34,689 nucleotides of DNA from Alphaproteobacteria bacterium. GTDB lineage: Bacteria; Pseudomonadota; Alphaproteobacteria; CAAGCB01; CAG-977. Below, piece by piece: positions 12,393 through 30,233 of the stretch. Below the pieces are notes generated by a model that was not told where the DNA came from, did no database searches, and worked only from the letters and a program-made list of their open reading frames with translations. Where the stretch lies: assembly GCA_024413465.1 (NCBI GenBank), contig JAKSVU010000004.1, positions 1 to 34,689 on the forward strand, written 5' to 3'. Numbering within the stretch: the first letter of the stretch is position 1; each line of letters starts with the position of its first letter. Position numbers and translations under genes: made by a program.

Positions 12393-12425
12393 TTCTGAAG
12401 TTTATTCAAATTAGGATTGAGAAGA

Positions 12426-13427
12426 ATGAATAAGGCCATAGTTTTAATTTCTTTAATTTGTTTTTTCGCTATTCCAAGCGCAAAGGCACAGTTTTTTCAA
12501 GATGAACTTAATCCAGCTTTTTCAAAAGCTTATAAGAAGACAGGTGCTGACATAAAAAAAGAAAATGAAGAAGCAAAGACGAAAAAGTATTACAAAACAA
12601 ATTTTAAAAGAAGAAGATATGAAGGCCCTTCTTACAAGGAAGCTAAGGAATTAGCAGAACGTCAAGTCTATGAAAAGATAAAAGAATATTTTCCTGTTGG
12701 TAATTTTACATTTAAAGTTGGGGATTTTTCGTATGAAGCCTCTTCTGACGTAGTTACCTTGTCAGAATTAGTTGCTGTTCCTAAAAAAGGGACAAAAGAA
12801 GAGGGAAAGATTCCTTATTTTTTCAAAATTGATCAAGCTAGATTGATAGGTTTTAATTTAGGCGAATTTTTGGGAATGCCTGTAAGTGAACAGGGCGTTA
12901 TAGAATTACGAAAAATTGATTTACCAAAATATAATGATTACTTTGTGCAAGTTGGAAAGACGGAAATTGGTCAGGTTCGCTTGGATGGAGCAGGTTTGGA
13001 TTTTATCAAAAAAGGAAAAGCCGAATTTAAAGAAATTCGTGTTAATGGCTTGTCAACGCAATCTATTATTGACCAAATTTTGCTAGGAAATATTGTTCGT
13101 GCTAAAAAATTTGAAACTAAATTAGCAATTTTTTCAGATGCAACTTTGTCAACGGAAATCATTAATTCAATTAAGGCTCAAAATTTAAAAGGATTAACTT
13201 TTGCAGTAGCTGCTGTAAATGGTTCTCAATATACTTCAATGGATGCAATCAATTTAGTTTTTACCTCGTACAGTGCTAGAGTATTAGATGTGGAAAAAAT
13301 AGCTGCTGTAAAACAAGAAATGGATATGAAAAAAGAAAAGGCTGATTTATCAAAAGAAAGATTGCAAATTTTGAAAATGGAAAAACAGAAGAAGCTTGAA
13401 AATTTAAAAAAGGAAGCTTTAAATTAG
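12426..13427 (+). CDS. Exported protein of unknown function, first gene of the pentapeptide/VirD4 unit
   Basis: Not recognised. From the ATG at 12426 (AGGA nine bases upstream) it has 333 residues; a TTG at 12417 would add three residues. The N-terminus is a clear Sec signal peptide, KAIVLISLICFFAIPSAKA with cleavage before QFFQ, so the bulk is periplasmic or outer-membrane associated. A Lys/Arg-rich stretch (about 35-75) is followed by a region rich in predicted beta strands (about 90-280, with repeated phrases such as LRKIDLPKYN and VRLDGAGLDF). The C-terminal 45 residues are a highly charged Lys/Glu helix, probably coiled coil. Its stop TAG touches the next ATG directly, so co-expression with the pentapeptide protein is near certain. 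Confidence 0.75.
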   Translation: MNKAIVLISLICFFAIPSAKAQFFQDELNPAFSKAYKKTGADIKKENEEAKTKKYYKTNFKRRRYEGPSYKEAKELAERQVYEKIKEYFPVGNFTFKVGDFSYEASSDVVTLSELVAVPKKGTKEEGKIPYFFKIDQARLIGFNLGEFLGMPVSEQGVIELRKIDLPKYNDYFVQVGKTEIGQVRLDGAGLDFIKKGKAEFKEIRVNGLSTQSIIDQILLGNIVRAKKFETKLAIFSDATLSTEIINSIKAQNLKGLTFAVAAVNGSQYTSMDAINLVFTSYSARVLDVEKIAAVKQEMDMKKEKADLSKERLQILKMEKQKKLENLKKEALN

Positions 13428-14804
13428 ATGGGTGACCAACAACAAGATACAGAAAATAAGGATGTTTATAGTGCCTTAACTAATAGGCCTGTCCGTAAGG
13501 TTGTTGATGATTCAGATACAACAACGTATGTTGCTGGTGTAAAAATAACTGATACTTTGACGGAACGTAAGCGCAAATTTAATGGGTGGGAAAATGATCC
13601 AGATGCCCAGATGGTTGTTCGTTCGTTGCAAATTGGTGAACAAGCTAAATTTTCAGGATCAGATTTTTCAGAAGTTGATTTTTCAGGGGCTAATTTATCT
13701 GGTGTAAATTTTTCTGGAGCTGATTTAAAAAATGCTAATTTGGCAGGAGTTGATTTACGAAATGCTAATTTAGCAGGTGCTGATTTAAGAGGTGTAAATC
13801 TTGAAGAAGCTGATTTGACAGGTGCTGATTTAACAGGGGCTATTTTAGATGGTGCTTATCTAAAAAATGCTATTATTGCTGGAGCAAAATTAGCAAAGGT
13901 TGCATTAAACGAATTAGAAAAAATGCAGCAACTACAACAACAAGCTGAAGATGGTCTGCTTGATTTAAGAAAAGTTCCTTTAAAATATTTGGATTTAAGA
14001 AAGCTTGATTTACGCGGTGTAGATTTGACTGGAGTTGATTTATCAGGTGTAAGTCTTGTTGGTGTGAATTTATCTGGTGCTAAAATAGATCAACAATACA
14101 TTGATGGGACATATTTGTTTAAAGAAGGGGCAAACAGAAAAGTTGAAATTAAAAAAGGAAACGTTGCTGGATTGGATTTAACTTCTGCTAATATAGTTAA
14201 ATCAAAGATGGCTGACGTTGAAATTTTGAGAAAAAAAAGACAGGCTCAAGTTCAAGCTGATGCGGAAAAAATGGAACAAGAATTAAAACAATCCGGCACC
14301 GAACAAAAATCTGTTGAAAAAATACTCAATCCAGAAGAAGTTGTAGAGGCTCAAAGAGCTGCAATGATGGCTTTGAACCCTAATTTTGGTTCAGAGAAAG
14401 AACAAACACCAGTTGAAAAGAAAAATGAAAATGTACCTGTTGAAATTTCCGCAGAAAATATGTTAGACCAAAGTTTGGCAATTTTGAAAGCTAGACGCCA
14501 ACAACAACCATCAGAAGAAGAATTAAAGGCTAGAATTAAGGATGTTGTTTTAGAAAATACATCATTGAAAAGTGGTGCAAAATCACTTGTTACGCGACGT
14601 CCTCGAAAAAAAGAAGAGTTACCTGCAAGTGAATTTGATTTTCCTATTTTATATCCACTTGAAAAAGAAGTGGAAAAGAAGAGTGTTGAAAAGTCACTCA
14701 CTCAAGAAGTGAGAAACGTTGTTTCAAACGTTTTTCATAAAATTATTCCAGTAAGATCATCAAAACGCGTTCGTGTAAAACAGCGTCAAAGACAAAGGAC
14801 TTGA
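13428..14804 (+). CDS. Two-block pentapeptide-repeat protein
   Basis: 458 residues with no signal peptide or membrane segment, so probably cytoplasmic. Residues about 75-158 are an uninterrupted series of A(D/N)LxG-type pentapeptides (for example FSGADLKNANLAGVDLRNAN) that should fold as a right-handed quadrilateral beta helix. A Gln-rich helical linker (about 160-178) precedes a second block at about 186-220, and a few degenerate repeats continue to about 260. The C-terminal half is Glu/Lys/Gln-rich and ends in a very basic tail (RVRVKQRQRQRT). Pentapeptide proteins range from gyrase-binding DNA mimics to scaffolds. The tight linkage to a VirD4-type ATPase suggests a scaffold or substrate role here, which is inference. 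Confidence 0.85.
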   Translation: MGDQQQDTENKDVYSALTNRPVRKVVDDSDTTTYVAGVKITDTLTERKRKFNGWENDPDAQMVVRSLQIGEQAKFSGSDFSEVDFSGANLSGVNFSGADLKNANLAGVDLRNANLAGADLRGVNLEEADLTGADLTGAILDGAYLKNAIIAGAKLAKVALNELEKMQQLQQQAEDGLLDLRKVPLKYLDLRKLDLRGVDLTGVDLSGVSLVGVNLSGAKIDQQYIDGTYLFKEGANRKVEIKKGNVAGLDLTSANIVKSKMADVEILRKKRQAQVQADAEKMEQELKQSGTEQKSVEKILNPEEVVEAQRAAMMALNPNFGSEKEQTPVEKKNENVPVEISAENMLDQSLAILKARRQQQPSEEELKARIKDVVLENTSLKSGAKSLVTRRPRKKEELPASEFDFPILYPLEKEVEKKSVEKSLTQEVRNVVSNVFHKIIPVRSSKRVRVKQRQRQRT

Positions 14805-17041
14805 TGAACATGAATTTGCTTGAGATTATTACAGATAAGTATCCGATGTTCCCGAAACGGGATGACTATGCTTATTTTGAGTATTTTCAAGGCGTTGATT
14901 ATATTACAAAGGGAATAGCTTTAAGTTTTATTCTTTCCTTTTTGTCTTTATTTGTAGCATATCCGATGGCCTATTTAGTTTCGCAGGGATTTGCTGCAGA
15001 GGCATGGATTAAAACTGACCAATTTTATCAATATCTACTTTATCATCCATTATATATTTTTGAACGCTATTATCGATGGATATTAATTATTGGAAAAAAT
15101 CCGTGGCAAAGTTTTTCAATGTGGTTGCCAGCTTTACCTTTTTTCGAATTTATTTTTGGTGTCATTTATACAATTAAATCTAATCCATATTATTTTGCAA
15201 GCCAAGAGTTAGGTGCAGGTCGTTTTGCTGATGATAATGATATTAAAAGAATGGGATTAGATCATGGTTTTACCTTTGTTATTGGAAATTACGAAGATAA
15301 AAAGTTGTTGAAGATGAATAATTATATGTCTGCTTTGATAGTTGGTGGACCTGGAACAGGGAAATCTACAGGTATATATATTCCAACAATTTTAGAAAAT
15401 GATGATAAATGTTTATTCATCAATGATATCAAAGGAGAATTATTTGCGGCAACTGCTGGACATCGTGCTGAATTAGGTCCTGTTTATCGACTTGATTTTT
15501 GTGGAGAAGATAATCCAAAAGCAGGAGAGTTTTGGCCAACGTGGAATCCTTTAAGTGATAAAGATTTGCCTCCACCTTGTCCTGGCAGGCAAAATTATAT
15601 TGGTGGATTGGCATATTTTTTACTGGATGATGGCCCAACAGGAACGGATCCATACTGGATTAAAACTGGTCGTGCTATTCTGGAAGGTTTCATCAATTAT
15701 ATCTGTGATAAATGTGAACAAGCTCGGGCAAATGATTATTTTCTGCAAAGATTATATGAAGATGCAATGGATGATGAAGATTATGAAGTTATTGAATCTT
15801 ATTATGATACGATGGAAAAAAGTGTTGCCGTTAAGCAAGCTTTAAATAATGTTCGCAAAAAGAAGTTAACGTTTAAAAATTATGTTCCAATTGGTACTTG
15901 GGATAAAATTCCAGAAGCGTGGGTTGGTAGGCAGTCAAGTTTTCCAATGATGTTGGATATGATTACAAAACTGCAACTTGATATATCGGCCCAATTGAGG
16001 GCTAGACGAGATGCAGGAGATCCAGTAGCATTTAAAACAGATGTCTGGTCATTTATTTTGAACGATATGATAGATGAAGCTAAATTTTATGGATACAATC
16101 GACGTGTTGTTGTTGAATTAAGCCAGGTTGCAGCTTTACCAAAAACTCAAAGATCTTCTGTTTTATCAATGGCATTGTCAGGTTTAGCTCCATTTAAAAA
16201 TGGTATTATTCGTGCAAGAACAGCGTCCAGTGATTTTGGAAGTCTTGATTTGCGTGGAGCTAAAAATTTAACAACGGGCCAGTGGGAGCCAACAACTTTT
16301 TATTTAGGATGTCCTGTTGAAGGAATGACCTATAAAATGTATAATATGTTTATCAATATGTATTCAGGAACGCCGATTATTTTTGCTCCCAATGAAGGTC
16401 CTGCGGGGCCATATCCACTTCTTTTTTTGCTTGATGAATTTTATATGATGGGGTTCCATGTTGCCGAAGCTATCGGAACAGGAATGTCGAAACAATTTTC
16501 ATTCTTATTAAGTTGCACAGATTTTGAACAATTGGGGGCTTCTTATGGTGGTGAAATGGAAACCTTGATTGGAAATACAGGGTGCAAGATTTTTATGCAG
16601 GTTAATACGCGTGAAACTGCAAGCAGAATCAATAGTTTGATTGAAACAAAAACAGTTACAACAATTTCAACAGCAAGAGATGAGGGAATTGGAACATCAA
16701 CCTCATTGTTTACACCGTATTTTGTTATGTATGGATCTATGGCTGATTCTATTATTCCTGATGATGGATGGATGACTTTGCCTCATGGAACGCATTATGC
16801 GATTATTCAAAAGAATGCAAATAGACTGATAAAGTTAAAGACACCGTTTTTCTTTAACGATCGAAAAATGTCTAAAATGGCAAAAATTCCAGCGCCACCA
16901 CCTTTATCTCTTACTTCATATAATGCTCGTGCTGCGGAAGATAAATTACCACCACCAGAAGATATGTCTGTTGAACCGGAGTATTTAAAAGCAAGAAAAA
17001 TAGGTGATATTGAACAGCAAGAAGAAACAGTCAAAGTTTGA
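14804..17041 (+). CDS. VirD4/TraG-type coupling ATPase
   Basis: Membrane ATPase that in type IV secretion and conjugation systems recruits substrates to the channel. From ATG 14804 (one base overlap with the previous stop, TGATG; AAGGA upstream) it has 745 residues. Two membrane segments lie at about 36-60 and 105-125. The TraG-like ATPase domain follows, with Walker A GGPGTGKST (about 181-189), DIKGELF shortly after, and Walker B PLLFLLDEFYMMG (about 537-549). C-terminal of this are the family's QLGASYG and GNTGCKIFM blocks. The tail is proline- and acid-rich. No relaxase, VirB or Dot/Icm gene is within the window, so whether this serves conjugation or effector export is open. ATG 14810 is an alternative start. 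Confidence 0.88.
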   Translation: MNMNLLEIITDKYPMFPKRDDYAYFEYFQGVDYITKGIALSFILSFLSLFVAYPMAYLVSQGFAAEAWIKTDQFYQYLLYHPLYIFERYYRWILIIGKNPWQSFSMWLPALPFFEFIFGVIYTIKSNPYYFASQELGAGRFADDNDIKRMGLDHGFTFVIGNYEDKKLLKMNNYMSALIVGGPGTGKSTGIYIPTILENDDKCLFINDIKGELFAATAGHRAELGPVYRLDFCGEDNPKAGEFWPTWNPLSDKDLPPPCPGRQNYIGGLAYFLLDDGPTGTDPYWIKTGRAILEGFINYICDKCEQARANDYFLQRLYEDAMDDEDYEVIESYYDTMEKSVAVKQALNNVRKKKLTFKNYVPIGTWDKIPEAWVGRQSSFPMMLDMITKLQLDISAQLRARRDAGDPVAFKTDVWSFILNDMIDEAKFYGYNRRVVVELSQVAALPKTQRSSVLSMALSGLAPFKNGIIRARTASSDFGSLDLRGAKNLTTGQWEPTTFYLGCPVEGMTYKMYNMFINMYSGTPIIFAPNEGPAGPYPLLFLLDEFYMMGFHVAEAIGTGMSKQFSFLLSCTDFEQLGASYGGEMETLIGNTGCKIFMQVNTRETASRINSLIETKTVTTISTARDEGIGTSTSLFTPYFVMYGSMADSIIPDDGWMTLPHGTHYAIIQKNANRLIKLKTPFFFNDRKMSKMAKIPAPPPLSLTSYNARAAEDKLPPPEDMSVEPEYLKARKIGDIEQQEETVKV

Positions 17042-27503: not shown

Positions 27504-27505
27504 CG

Positions 27506-27546
27506 AAGGAGTTGAGTTGCAAGAAGCAATCAACTCCTTTATTTTT
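27506..27546 (+). terminator. Rho-independent terminator after purA
   Basis: AAGGAGTTG (27506-27514) pairs with CAACTCCTT (27531-27539). The stem continues inward with an A-T pair, one bulged G and TTGC/GCAA, closing on the loop AAGAA. A T-rich tail (27540-27546) follows. Purine-side orientation and T-tail fit termination of the hisZ-purA transcript. Confidence 0.8.
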
Positions 27547-27566
27547 AAAACCATAGGAAGAATACC

Positions 27567-29687
27567 ATGGATGAGGATGTAACAACAGAACAAGAAGCTA
27601 CTTCTTCTGATGAACAACAACAGGAGACTGTTGATCAGGTTGAGAGTGAAGCCGAAGACGAAGAAGCTATTCAACAAGATTTGCAGATAGAGAGTATAAA
27701 AGCTTTCTTTGATGAGAAAGTTGTCATAAATCGTAGATATACTGTTTATGCTGGAAAACCGTTGTCACAATTTGATTTGCCAAGTGTAAAAGCTTATTTT
27801 GCTGAAGACAAAAAATCTGATAAAAGTTTGTTTGCTTACGTTTGTCGTCCTGATTTGCCGATTAGAACAGATCAAATTAGGTTGAGAAAAGGACTAAAAG
27901 TTAAGGGGTTGATGTGTTTAGTCGATGCCGGTGTCGGTTATTGGAAAGAATTTGATCAAAAAACGTATTTTTTAATTTACGAGGCTCCCGCTGGTGGTCG
28001 TATTTGGACAGGTGAAAAAAAGAAGTATGTCACGGATGAATCCATTTTAATTGAAAACTGGATCAAACCTGTGATGGTTGCCTTGTCGAATATGTTAGAT
28101 CGTGGATTAACGCATAGAGCCGTCCGTCCAGATAATATGTTTTATGCTGATGCAGAAAGAACAGAAATTATTTTAGGAGATTGTATTGCTACTCCACCAG
28201 CTTATGATCAGCCTGATATGTTGGAAACTATACCGTCGTTATTGTGTCAAAAATATGGTCGAGGTAATGGAACCGTTTTAGATGATCTATATGCATTTGG
28301 TGGAACTCTGTTGTGTATGTCTATAGGTTATAATCCAGTTGAACAACTTTCTAAAGATGAACTGATTGATTTGAAATTACAAAAAGGATCATATGCTTCA
28401 TTAATTGGAACTGAAAAAGTTAATTTGTCCATGATTGAGCTTTTGCGTGGTTTATTGAATGATGATGCAAATCAACGTTGGTCGATTACTGCAGTACAGC
28501 AATGGATTGATGGAAGAAGATTGACACCTATGCAGTTTAAATCACAAACAACATCACAACGTCCATTCAATTTTGATGGTGATGAATATTTTAACTATCA
28601 AACGTTGGCAGTTGCTTTTATGCGTAAATGGAATTTAGCTGCAGAAGTAATTCGATCTGAAAAATTTGAAACATGGCTATTACGTGGTTTTGAAGATAAA
28701 GTTGCTTTATTAACCTTAAAAAATATAAAAGAAATTGCATCAATGAGTTTTTCTGTAAAAGAAAAACAAGATGATTACGTAATTTCAAGAACAATTATGT
28801 ATTTGTATCCTGCGGCTCCGCTTGTTTTAAAAAGCCTCTCTTTTATGCCTGATGGTTTTGGTATGTTATTAGCATACTACGTTTTAAACGGAGAAAATTT
28901 ATCAACCTTATCCATGTTGGTAAATAAAGGGTACATGGAATCATGGTTTCTTGTTCGAGATGATAGAGTTGCAGCACAACAATTAAAATCATATCAAATT
29001 AGTTTGTCAAAACCGGATATGGGGGCTGGAATTGAGCATCTTCTGTATGAGTTAAATGAAAATTTCCCATGTCAAAGTCCATTAGTGAAAAAAGAATACG
29101 TGGTTACCGTACAAGAATTACTTCCAGCTTTGGAGGCCACATCAAGAACAATAGATATCAAGACAGATCCAATAGATCGTCATATCGCAGCTTTTTTGAA
29201 CGTTAATTATGGTGCAAAATTAGCTACGATGTTGAAAGATATTAATTCTAATCATGATAATGTTGTGGCAGATGGTATTTTACATATATATTCTACATTA
29301 CAGTACACAATGGGGCCAGAAAAATTAGTTGGATTGACAGGCTGGGTTGGTAAACATGCAATGCCAATGATTAAAAATTATCATAATTTGGAAACAAGAC
29401 AAGATTTTGAAAAAGCTTATCCTAAATTATTAAAAAAAGGAAATATGCCTGAAATATATAAGCTTTTAAATGATAAAGAAGAATTGTTGTTAGATCGTCA
29501 AAATTTTGTAATGGCTCAAAAAGAATATAAAGAATATGCTGACGAAATTGATTTTCTAGAGGGAAATCGAACAATGCGTAGTGAAGAAATTTTACAAACG
29601 GGATTCGAAGTTGCTGCATTGTTGTCAATGGGGTTGGCTTTATTGGTTGTTATTATACTTTTAATTGGTGTATTTTTTGGGTGGTGA
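27567..29687 (+). CDS. Tail-anchored pseudokinase-like protein
   Basis: 706 residues. An acidic Glu/Gln-rich N-terminus (1-40) is followed by a region (about 55-320) with the layout of a Ser/Thr protein kinase but degraded catalytic residues. The HRD loop reads HRAVRPDN (183-190), so the catalytic Asp is Ala. The DFG site reads GDC (204-206), and no VAIK lysine is evident (FAYVC near 89-93). The DxYxxG helix-F motif (DDLYAFGG) and the late Arg (R304) remain. A helical region of about 350 residues without a recognisable family follows. One membrane segment ends the protein (about 680-704), placing the rest in the cytoplasm. AGGAAG precedes the start. A scaffold or sensor role is likely; the kinase-fold call is by eye. 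Confidence 0.7.
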   Translation: MDEDVTTEQEATSSDEQQQETVDQVESEAEDEEAIQQDLQIESIKAFFDEKVVINRRYTVYAGKPLSQFDLPSVKAYFAEDKKSDKSLFAYVCRPDLPIRTDQIRLRKGLKVKGLMCLVDAGVGYWKEFDQKTYFLIYEAPAGGRIWTGEKKKYVTDESILIENWIKPVMVALSNMLDRGLTHRAVRPDNMFYADAERTEIILGDCIATPPAYDQPDMLETIPSLLCQKYGRGNGTVLDDLYAFGGTLLCMSIGYNPVEQLSKDELIDLKLQKGSYASLIGTEKVNLSMIELLRGLLNDDANQRWSITAVQQWIDGRRLTPMQFKSQTTSQRPFNFDGDEYFNYQTLAVAFMRKWNLAAEVIRSEKFETWLLRGFEDKVALLTLKNIKEIASMSFSVKEKQDDYVISRTIMYLYPAAPLVLKSLSFMPDGFGMLLAYYVLNGENLSTLSMLVNKGYMESWFLVRDDRVAAQQLKSYQISLSKPDMGAGIEHLLYELNENFPCQSPLVKKEYVVTVQELLPALEATSRTIDIKTDPIDRHIAAFLNVNYGAKLATMLKDINSNHDNVVADGILHIYSTLQYTMGPEKLVGLTGWVGKHAMPMIKNYHNLETRQDFEKAYPKLLKKGNMPEIYKLLNDKEELLLDRQNFVMAQKEYKEYADEIDFLEGNRTMRSEEILQTGFEVAALLSMGLALLVVIILLIGVFFGW

Positions 29688-29693
29688 TAAAAA

Positions 29694-30233
29694 ATGGCTA
29701 GTGTAAAAAAAGAAGTACAGCCAACAATGGCAAAAAAATCTAACAGAAAAAAATTTATGAGTACGTTTTCTGCTTGTTTGATAATGTTGCCACTTTTCTT
29801 TATGTTAAGAAGTACAGTGTTTTTCTTGTCAATGGCTATGCTACCTACTTTGTTAAGTTTAATTTTTGAAAATAAAGCTCAGGGAAAATATAGACATCGT
29901 TGGTTGTGTATTGGAAGTATGAATTTTGCGGGCGCTTTTCCGTTTTTGTTGAAAATGTGGCGAAATGAAAATACCTTGGAAGGGGCTTTGTCTTTCTTTT
30001 TTAATCCATCATCAATGATGATTATTTTGGGGATGGTTCTGATAGGTTTCTTGTTTTCAAGGGGGGTTCCAACTATTGTTTTGAGTTATTTGGAACAAAA
30101 AGATAAGTATCATGTTCACAGTTTAAGAGAAAAACAAAATCGTTTAATTGAATTGTGGGGGCCAGAGGTCGCTAATTTGGTTAATGTAACTCCAGAAGTT
30201 TCTGTTCAAAATCAAACTGCCGTTAAAAAATAA
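29694..30233 (+). CDS. Small polytopic membrane protein of unknown function
   Basis: Not recognised. The 179 residues start with a basic tail (KKEVQPTMAKKSNRKKF) and contain about four hydrophobic segments: roughly 23-41, 43-62, 75-90 and 102-130. A short soluble C-terminus rich in charged residues follows, with a WGPE motif near residue 156. It begins six bases after the pseudokinase-like gene, whose protein is itself membrane-anchored at its C-terminus, so the two products probably act as a membrane complex. No terminator separates it from the rpsF promoter region. Confidence 0.65.
   Translation: MASVKKEVQPTMAKKSNRKKFMSTFSACLIMLPLFFMLRSTVFFLSMAMLPTLLSLIFENKAQGKYRHRWLCIGSMNFAGAFPFLLKMWRNENTLEGALSFFFNPSSMMIILGMVLIGFLFSRGVPTIVLSYLEQKDKYHVHSLREKQNRLIELWGPEVANLVNVTPEVSVQNQTAVKK

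Follow-up and report, generated by a model that had tools for sequence, protein, structure and literature searches.

We report here a pair of neighbouring genes, encoding a tail-anchored pseudokinase (PsK) and a small polytopic membrane protein (ORF2); together they suggest a membrane regulator or scaffold of two parts, not described so far, within the bacterial membrane pseudokinases. The pair lies in a stretch of 34,689 nucleotides, hereafter the window, which covers positions 1 to 34,689 (forward strand) of contig JAKSVU010000004.1 of an alphaproteobacterial genome from the CAG-977 lineage (GCA_024413465.1, an assembly of 2.03 Mb in 130 contigs). The reading we favour, with a probability of roughly 0.6, is that PsK and ORF2 are obligate partners in one inner-membrane complex, which serves as a non-catalytic scaffold or an allosteric adaptor for an inner-membrane machine. 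The two genes are placed as follows.

27567 to 29687, + strand: PsK, tail-anchored pseudokinase gene, 706 amino acids (open reading frame; 99 of the 289 genomes surveyed in the class have homologues above 80 bits)
29694 to 30233, + strand: ORF2, gene of a small polytopic membrane protein, 179 amino acids (open reading frame; usually directly 3' of PsK)

Both open reading frames are on the same strand and are separated by 6 bases, the spacing that a sequence-only reading of this DNA had given.

That reading had also recognised a kinase-like region in PsK, and the predicted structure agrees.

27711 to 28517, + strand: kinase-fold region, residues 49-317 (AlphaFold2 model; structure search with best Z 23.3; profile match to MK2)

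On the whole, the AlphaFold2 model of PsK has a mean pLDDT (predicted local distance difference test) of 88.3. In a Foldseek structure search the model has a WNK3 kinase as its top match (E 3.3e-9), and VIA-align gives Z values from 20.9 upwards across the 50 matches shown, all of which are kinase or pseudokinase domains aligned mostly to residues 49-317. WNK3 and WNK1 lead the VIA-align list, and its first four rows have Z of about 23 and deviations of 2.7-2.9 Å for some 250 aligned residues. At the sequence level, a profile built from 28 PsK homologues matches MK2 with E 1.4e-11, and the Pfam Pkinase model matches residues 131-312 with 26.9 bits, below its cut-off of 31.7. Residues 49-317 are therefore confidently predicted, on the model, to adopt the two-lobed protein-kinase fold.

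The catalytic residues of this fold are lost, which we examined in a set of 159 full-length matches from 161 loci, 139 of them unique.

27828 to 27845, + strand: beta3 strand LFAYVC, residues 88-93, with Val92 at the site of the VAIK lysine (alignment through MK2)
28113 to 28136, + strand: pseudo-catalytic loop HRAVRPDN, residues 183-190 (homologue alignment)
28176 to 28184, + strand: GDC, residues 204-206, at the DFG region (homologue alignment)
28209 to 28286, + strand: conserved pseudo-activation segment, Q215 to D240 (homologue alignment)

The window PsK has H183-R184-A185 at the HRD site and Val92 at the lysine site, so that the alignment confirms the HRA in place of HRD and the missing VAIK lysine noticed from the sequence. 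Among the 139 homologues the lysine occurs in one, the HRD aspartate (position 185) in two, and the two together in none, which shows that the catalytic loss is a family trait and not peculiar to the window gene; the relatives having both residues fall outside the family and the class. Most members read H[RG][ASGN] at the HRD site and [FY]A[LIY][IV]C around the beta3 lysine. Neither a conserved glycine-rich loop nor a conserved alphaC glutamate is found across the set (position 102: D 63, E 21, N 19), and the beta2 lysine is not conserved either (position 75 is K in 31 homologues, position 80 in 14). What the family does retain is Asn190 (137/139), a mostly acidic residue at the DFG aspartate (position 205: D 67, E 62, P 7, Q 3), and the pseudo-activation segment, with Q215 in 137, E220 in 133, R232 in 128 and D240 in all 139. 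An active Ser/Thr protein kinase is rejected, as the beta3 lysine and the HRD aspartate never occur together. In WNK kinases the catalytic lysine has moved to beta2; a WNK-like active kinase with such a displaced lysine is rejected too, as no conserved lysine occurs at residues 74-81 of the 139 homologues.

Behind the kinase fold, PsK continues into a long helical region and ends at the membrane.

28518 to 29564, + strand: largely helical region, which includes two small hairpins; residues 318-666 (AlphaFold2, pLDDT mostly >90)
29022 to 29195, + strand: second conservation peak, GxGxE[R]xxY...CxS...DRHxxAF, residues 486-543 (homologue alignment)
29589 to 29684, + strand: C-terminal membrane anchor, residues 675-706 (hydropathy; model helix 668-703)

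Conservation by mean entropy has two maxima, at residues 181-245 (1.84 bits) and 481-545 (2.07 bits), the other nine stretches lying at 2.12-2.84 bits, and the two maxima hold 14 and 13 positions, respectively, that are at least 85 percent conserved (weighted). In the second one, E490, Y494, C502, S504, D537 and H539 are each kept in at least 136 of the 139 homologues, and R491 and R538 are also among the conserved positions; the window PsK has His491 (29037-29039) where 134 of the 139 have arginine. The only strong hydrophobic segment of PsK is residues 675-706, with a peak 19-residue hydropathy of 3.09. Model and hydropathy thus both agree with a long C-terminal helical region followed by a single anchor, as first proposed. 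Residues 318-706 chained to ORF2 have no match among PDB structures (best Foldseek E 2.1, best VIA Z 5.5), the helical region having been searched only in this chain.

As to ORF2, the hydropathy of the window protein exceeds the threshold only at residues 19-60, with room for two helices, and at 97-134, while residues 68-88 give a weak peak in the family-mean hydropathy and a helix in the model. The protein would accordingly have three or four predicted membrane helices; the polytopic nature claimed for it stands, and the count of four segments is not firm. Neither the ORF2 profile nor its members score over cut-off in Pfam or NCBIfam, and no PDB sequence matches with any weight. The weak matches are judged to be chance, namely DUF2207_C (E 0.037, window protein), SoPB_HTH in one of 30 members, three NCBIfam models in one of 30 members each, and one PDB chain (E 0.53).

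Nevertheless, it is the inheritance of ORF2 that ties it to PsK. Of the 139 unique cases, 116 have an ORF2 homologue directly 3' of PsK; their median gap is 10 nucleotides, and in 105 of the 116 it is no larger than 36. For the other 23, a profile search finds ORF2 inside the locus in five, and elsewhere in the genome in all the remaining 18, 13 of these having one match each. A survey of the class covered 289 genomes, of which 99 carry PsK and 102 carry ORF2, and none of the 99 lacks ORF2; seven genomes with only 25-36 bit PsK matches had been removed from an initial 106 as ordinary kinases. The three genomes with ORF2 only are G015 (20 bits, marginal), G043 (an ORF2 fragment where a contig ends) and G057 (ORF2 at a contig end). 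A dedicated partner, as had been suggested, is well supported by this, including the genomes where the genes are unlinked. Co-inheritance of this kind, holding without constant linkage, is what one would expect of an obligate PsK-ORF2 complex. The membrane protein inherited along with PsK belongs to no known family, and for the helical region of PsK the chained search found no known fold.

In the inner-membrane complex that we favour, PsK would hang in the cytoplasm from its C-terminal helix, with a kinase-fold head unable to transfer phosphate. The pseudo-active face (Asn190, Asp/Glu205, Gln215, Glu220 and the GRGxG turn) may be a binding site for a ligand or a partner protein, and the patch on the helical region (E490, R491, Y494, C502, S504, D537, H539) may be a second docking site. 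ORF2 would seat the PsK anchor in the membrane or relay a signal. It is from the computed features above that we infer this topology, the physical complex, the lack of catalysis and the role as a signalling or assembly scaffold. Several observations weigh against such a picture. The copies of PsK and ORF2 are unequal in some genomes, being 2/1 in G106, G145 and G245, 4/3 in G138, and 1/4 in G025 and G157, and because of these differences a fixed one-to-one complex is not true of every copy. The extra ORF2 copies of G025 and G157 have no shared neighbour by eye across the six neighbourhoods fetched, in some of which (e.g. L187, L188) ORF2 was missed by the open reading frame caller. The model of the PsK C-terminus chained to ORF2 (pLDDT 88, predicted template modelling score 0.70) is confident for each part and comes without an inter-chain score. 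Lastly, because Asn190 and the acidic residue 205 are kept in most members, nucleotide or metal binding, or even unusual chemistry, is possible.

This last point underlies the alternative that PsK is a nucleotide sensor or a kinase-fold enzyme of altered chemistry, in which the retained Asn190 (137/139) and Asp/Glu205 (129/139) would bind a nucleotide or metal in the absence of the beta3 lysine. In its favour, the structure search lists WNK kinases first, a group that is likewise devoid of this lysine, and SidJ shows that a kinase-fold protein can catalyse another reaction. However, the 139 homologues lack the conserved beta2 lysine, glycine-rich loop and alphaC glutamate, and we regard this alternative as doubtful, if still worth keeping in mind.

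The further alternatives are drawn from gene order. Usually PsK has the same surroundings. Among loci with room for a search, the 2.5 kb upstream contain purA in 91 of 137 and hisZ in 48 of 73, and the 2.5 kb downstream contain rpoH in 48 of 133, these counts being lower bounds where the flanks are short, as many loci have only 1.5 kb downstream. Such surroundings look like a conserved chromosomal position more than a sign of function. Departures from it, which we treat as leads, are the relocated neighbourhoods, for which most genes were named by eye and a subset was checked with Pfam (G143, G245 and the window neighbours); tblastn with members named by eye served to trace tilS, ftsH and rpoH, and rpoH also has Pfam sigma-70 domains. 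PsK directly follows tilS in eight loci, and in all but one of the eight genomes ORF2 follows ftsH in the same orientation (L211-L215, L225, L226), with a gap of 5-11 bases in six genomes and about 200 in one. As tilS-ftsH is normally one gene pair, PsK and ORF2 have both relocated to similar surroundings. In addition, tilS-ftsH starts 1 kb past PsK in Magnetospirillum fulvum, and ftsH ends 6 kb ahead of PsK in a Micavibrio metagenome-assembled genome. Together with rpoH, which follows PsK in at least the 48 loci above, these cases suggest that the pair may regulate the membrane protease FtsH or act as its adaptor, perhaps by feeding it RpoH or membrane substrates. LapB/YciM, an anchored helical-repeat adaptor, has an analogous layout. 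Against this, all seven ftsH-ORF2 cases seem to belong to a single lineage and so count as about one event, and the ORF2 of the eighth genome, G228, adjoins ychF instead of ftsH. Furthermore, about ten relocated neighbourhoods were inspected, others of them having recA, trp genes, ychF or an epimerase (by eye), so that a telling neighbour may be met by chance. We consider a role with FtsH unlikely, and slightly more so its specific form, in which the dead head and the helical region would capture RpoH or a lipid-A or membrane enzyme, with ORF2 docking on FtsH. If true, it would give a Gram-negative example of a pseudokinase controlling membrane proteolysis.

Equally improbable as that specific form is a part in the flagellar export or motor apparatus. 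This is suggested by genome G143 (L166, 2238-11892), where two tandem PsK-ORF2 pairs are directly followed by flhA, a MotA/TolQ-type gene and a sigma-54 activator, and by the presence of FlhA (PF00771) in 89 of the 99 PsK genomes versus 77 of the 190 others, an association uncorrected for ancestry. However, ten PsK genomes have no FlhA, several of them nearly complete (G071, G091, G219), so that a general flagellar part is rejected, and the usual neighbour of PsK is purA, not flagellar genes. Both FtsH proteolysis and flagellar export are thus weak leads from gene order. A part in type VI secretion was also considered and rejected, for a PsK paralogue stands beside ImpA/IcmF/VasE genes, with no adjacent ORF2, only in G245 and, by eye, G145. 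That PsK is a decaying kinase gene without function, as the lost catalytic residues might suggest, is hardly credible, since the long open frames, the two conserved surfaces, the retention in small genomes and the co-inherited partner indicate selection and speak strongly against it.

It is of interest to compare PsK with the known bacterial pseudokinases, for which seven annotated families are given in a 2025 review (PMC12599244). The precedent for a scaffold pseudokinase there is EssB/YukC of type VII secretion (PMC12599244). EssB/YukC is, like PsK, a pseudokinase with three degraded motifs and one transmembrane segment, and is a structural and regulatory part of a membrane machine, while it belongs to Firmicutes and the type VII secretion system b (PMC9600267). 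PsK, in contrast, is alphaproteobacterial, has its anchor at the chain end after about 350 mostly helical residues, and has the small partner ORF2. No type VII secretion family is found among the window genes scanned, these genes having not been searched in other genomes, and EssB is not in the listed rows of the Foldseek and VIA-align searches. The GLW pseudokinases are described with GLW at the HRD site and LLLL/W at the lysine (PMC12599244), unlike the motifs of PsK, in which position 183 is H in 130 of 139, 184 is R/G in 127 and 185 is A/S/G/N in 127, with no W at 185; membership is therefore rejected. The DLHK pseudokinases are, like PsK, proteobacterial with a degraded ATP-binding motif, however they keep the HRD aspartate and have no transmembrane regions (PMC12599244), and the two aspartates in 139 and the membrane anchor place PsK outside them. 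MviN/ActPs3 shares with PsK the membrane link and the degraded motifs, whereas ActPs3 is primarily actinobacterial and the MviN pseudokinase sits on a transmembrane peptidoglycan-synthesis protein (PMC12599244); a Pfam search to E 1 gives only the sub-threshold Pkinase match for PsK, against membership here as well. LanL and MAD6 of NCBIfam are rejected by score (25.2 bits against a cut-off of 650, and 15.7 against 460), and so is an anti-phage kinase, the window PsK having only weak kinase-domain matches to the MkoA, mad6 and PD-T4-6 models (E 1.1e-5 to 0.008). Judged from sequence, PsK appears to fit none of GLW, DLHK and MviN/ActPs3, nor EssB by its locus, while ActPs1, ActPs2, CP1 and DYD were compared by the review description only. 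No description of the PsK family was found among the literature matches listed, a thin coverage which leaves out most subscription papers and preprints.

The family is widespread, being present in about a third of the alphaproteobacterial genomes sampled (99/289) and in 32 of 61 genomes among relatives. Named hosts among the best 80 of 344 confirmed stretches are Azospirillum, Skermanella, Magnetospirillum, Telmatospirillum and Terasakiella, of which Azospirillum and Magnetospirillum are genetically tractable. Among 299 genomes sampled from the phylum, eight of the class have strong matches and three outside it have partial ones (79-88 bits).

Three loci in other classes of the phylum match the family profile, with genome-wide E of 8e-25 to 1.5e-22.

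L180:6991-9627, L181:1024-3330 and L182:3502-5487: live kinases with C-terminal repeats

Their proteins have an intact lysine, HRDIKPGN and DFG, and score 125-137 bits with Pkinase. The profile match does not stop with the kinase domain but covers about 100-160 more positions in the helical region, and L181 and L182 have additional matching pieces. The three proteins are thus like PsK in having a similar repeat behind the kinase domain, and unlike it in their intact catalytic residues and in the lack of an ORF2 match in the three genomes, two of which are only 57 and 67 percent complete. Since they keep Lys/HRD/DFG as well as part of the C-terminal repeats, a live kinase of the same layout is the probable ancestor of the pseudokinases. 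A FastTree sketch agrees, with six active kinases on one side of a branch (support 87) and two HRD-Asp changes, though long branches meet in this tree and five of the six active kinases have no residue at the lysine column. A search for more live relatives in the class of genome G304 finds only G304 among 48 genomes at E 1e-60, a threshold that is too strict. Because PsK has live-kinase relatives, the transition from enzyme to scaffold is open to direct study. The neighbours of L180 encode a 4Fe-4S (radical-SAM-type) protein, an AAA ATPase and a sulfatase-modifying-factor-like protein.

Finally, in the window itself, PsK is preceded on its 5' side by purA and a hisZ-like gene, the latter scoring under the NCBIfam cut-offs, and the pair is followed on its 3' side by rpsF, rpsR and rplI, identified by eye from the sequence.

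27505 to 27547, + strand: hairpin with a T-rich tail in the purA-PsK gap (-19.5 kcal/mol, z -5.6 versus shuffles)

This hairpin is probably the purA terminator, and as this strong hairpin lies between purA and PsK, the PsK-ORF2 pair probably has its own transcript. A terminator scan of the window does not call it, probably due to a bulge in the stem. Farther away, at 12417-17041, three successive genes encode a 336-amino-acid protein with no Pfam match, a 458-amino-acid pentapeptide-repeat protein and a 746-amino-acid TraG/VirD4-type coupling protein, which resemble a portion of a conjugation or type IV secretion system.
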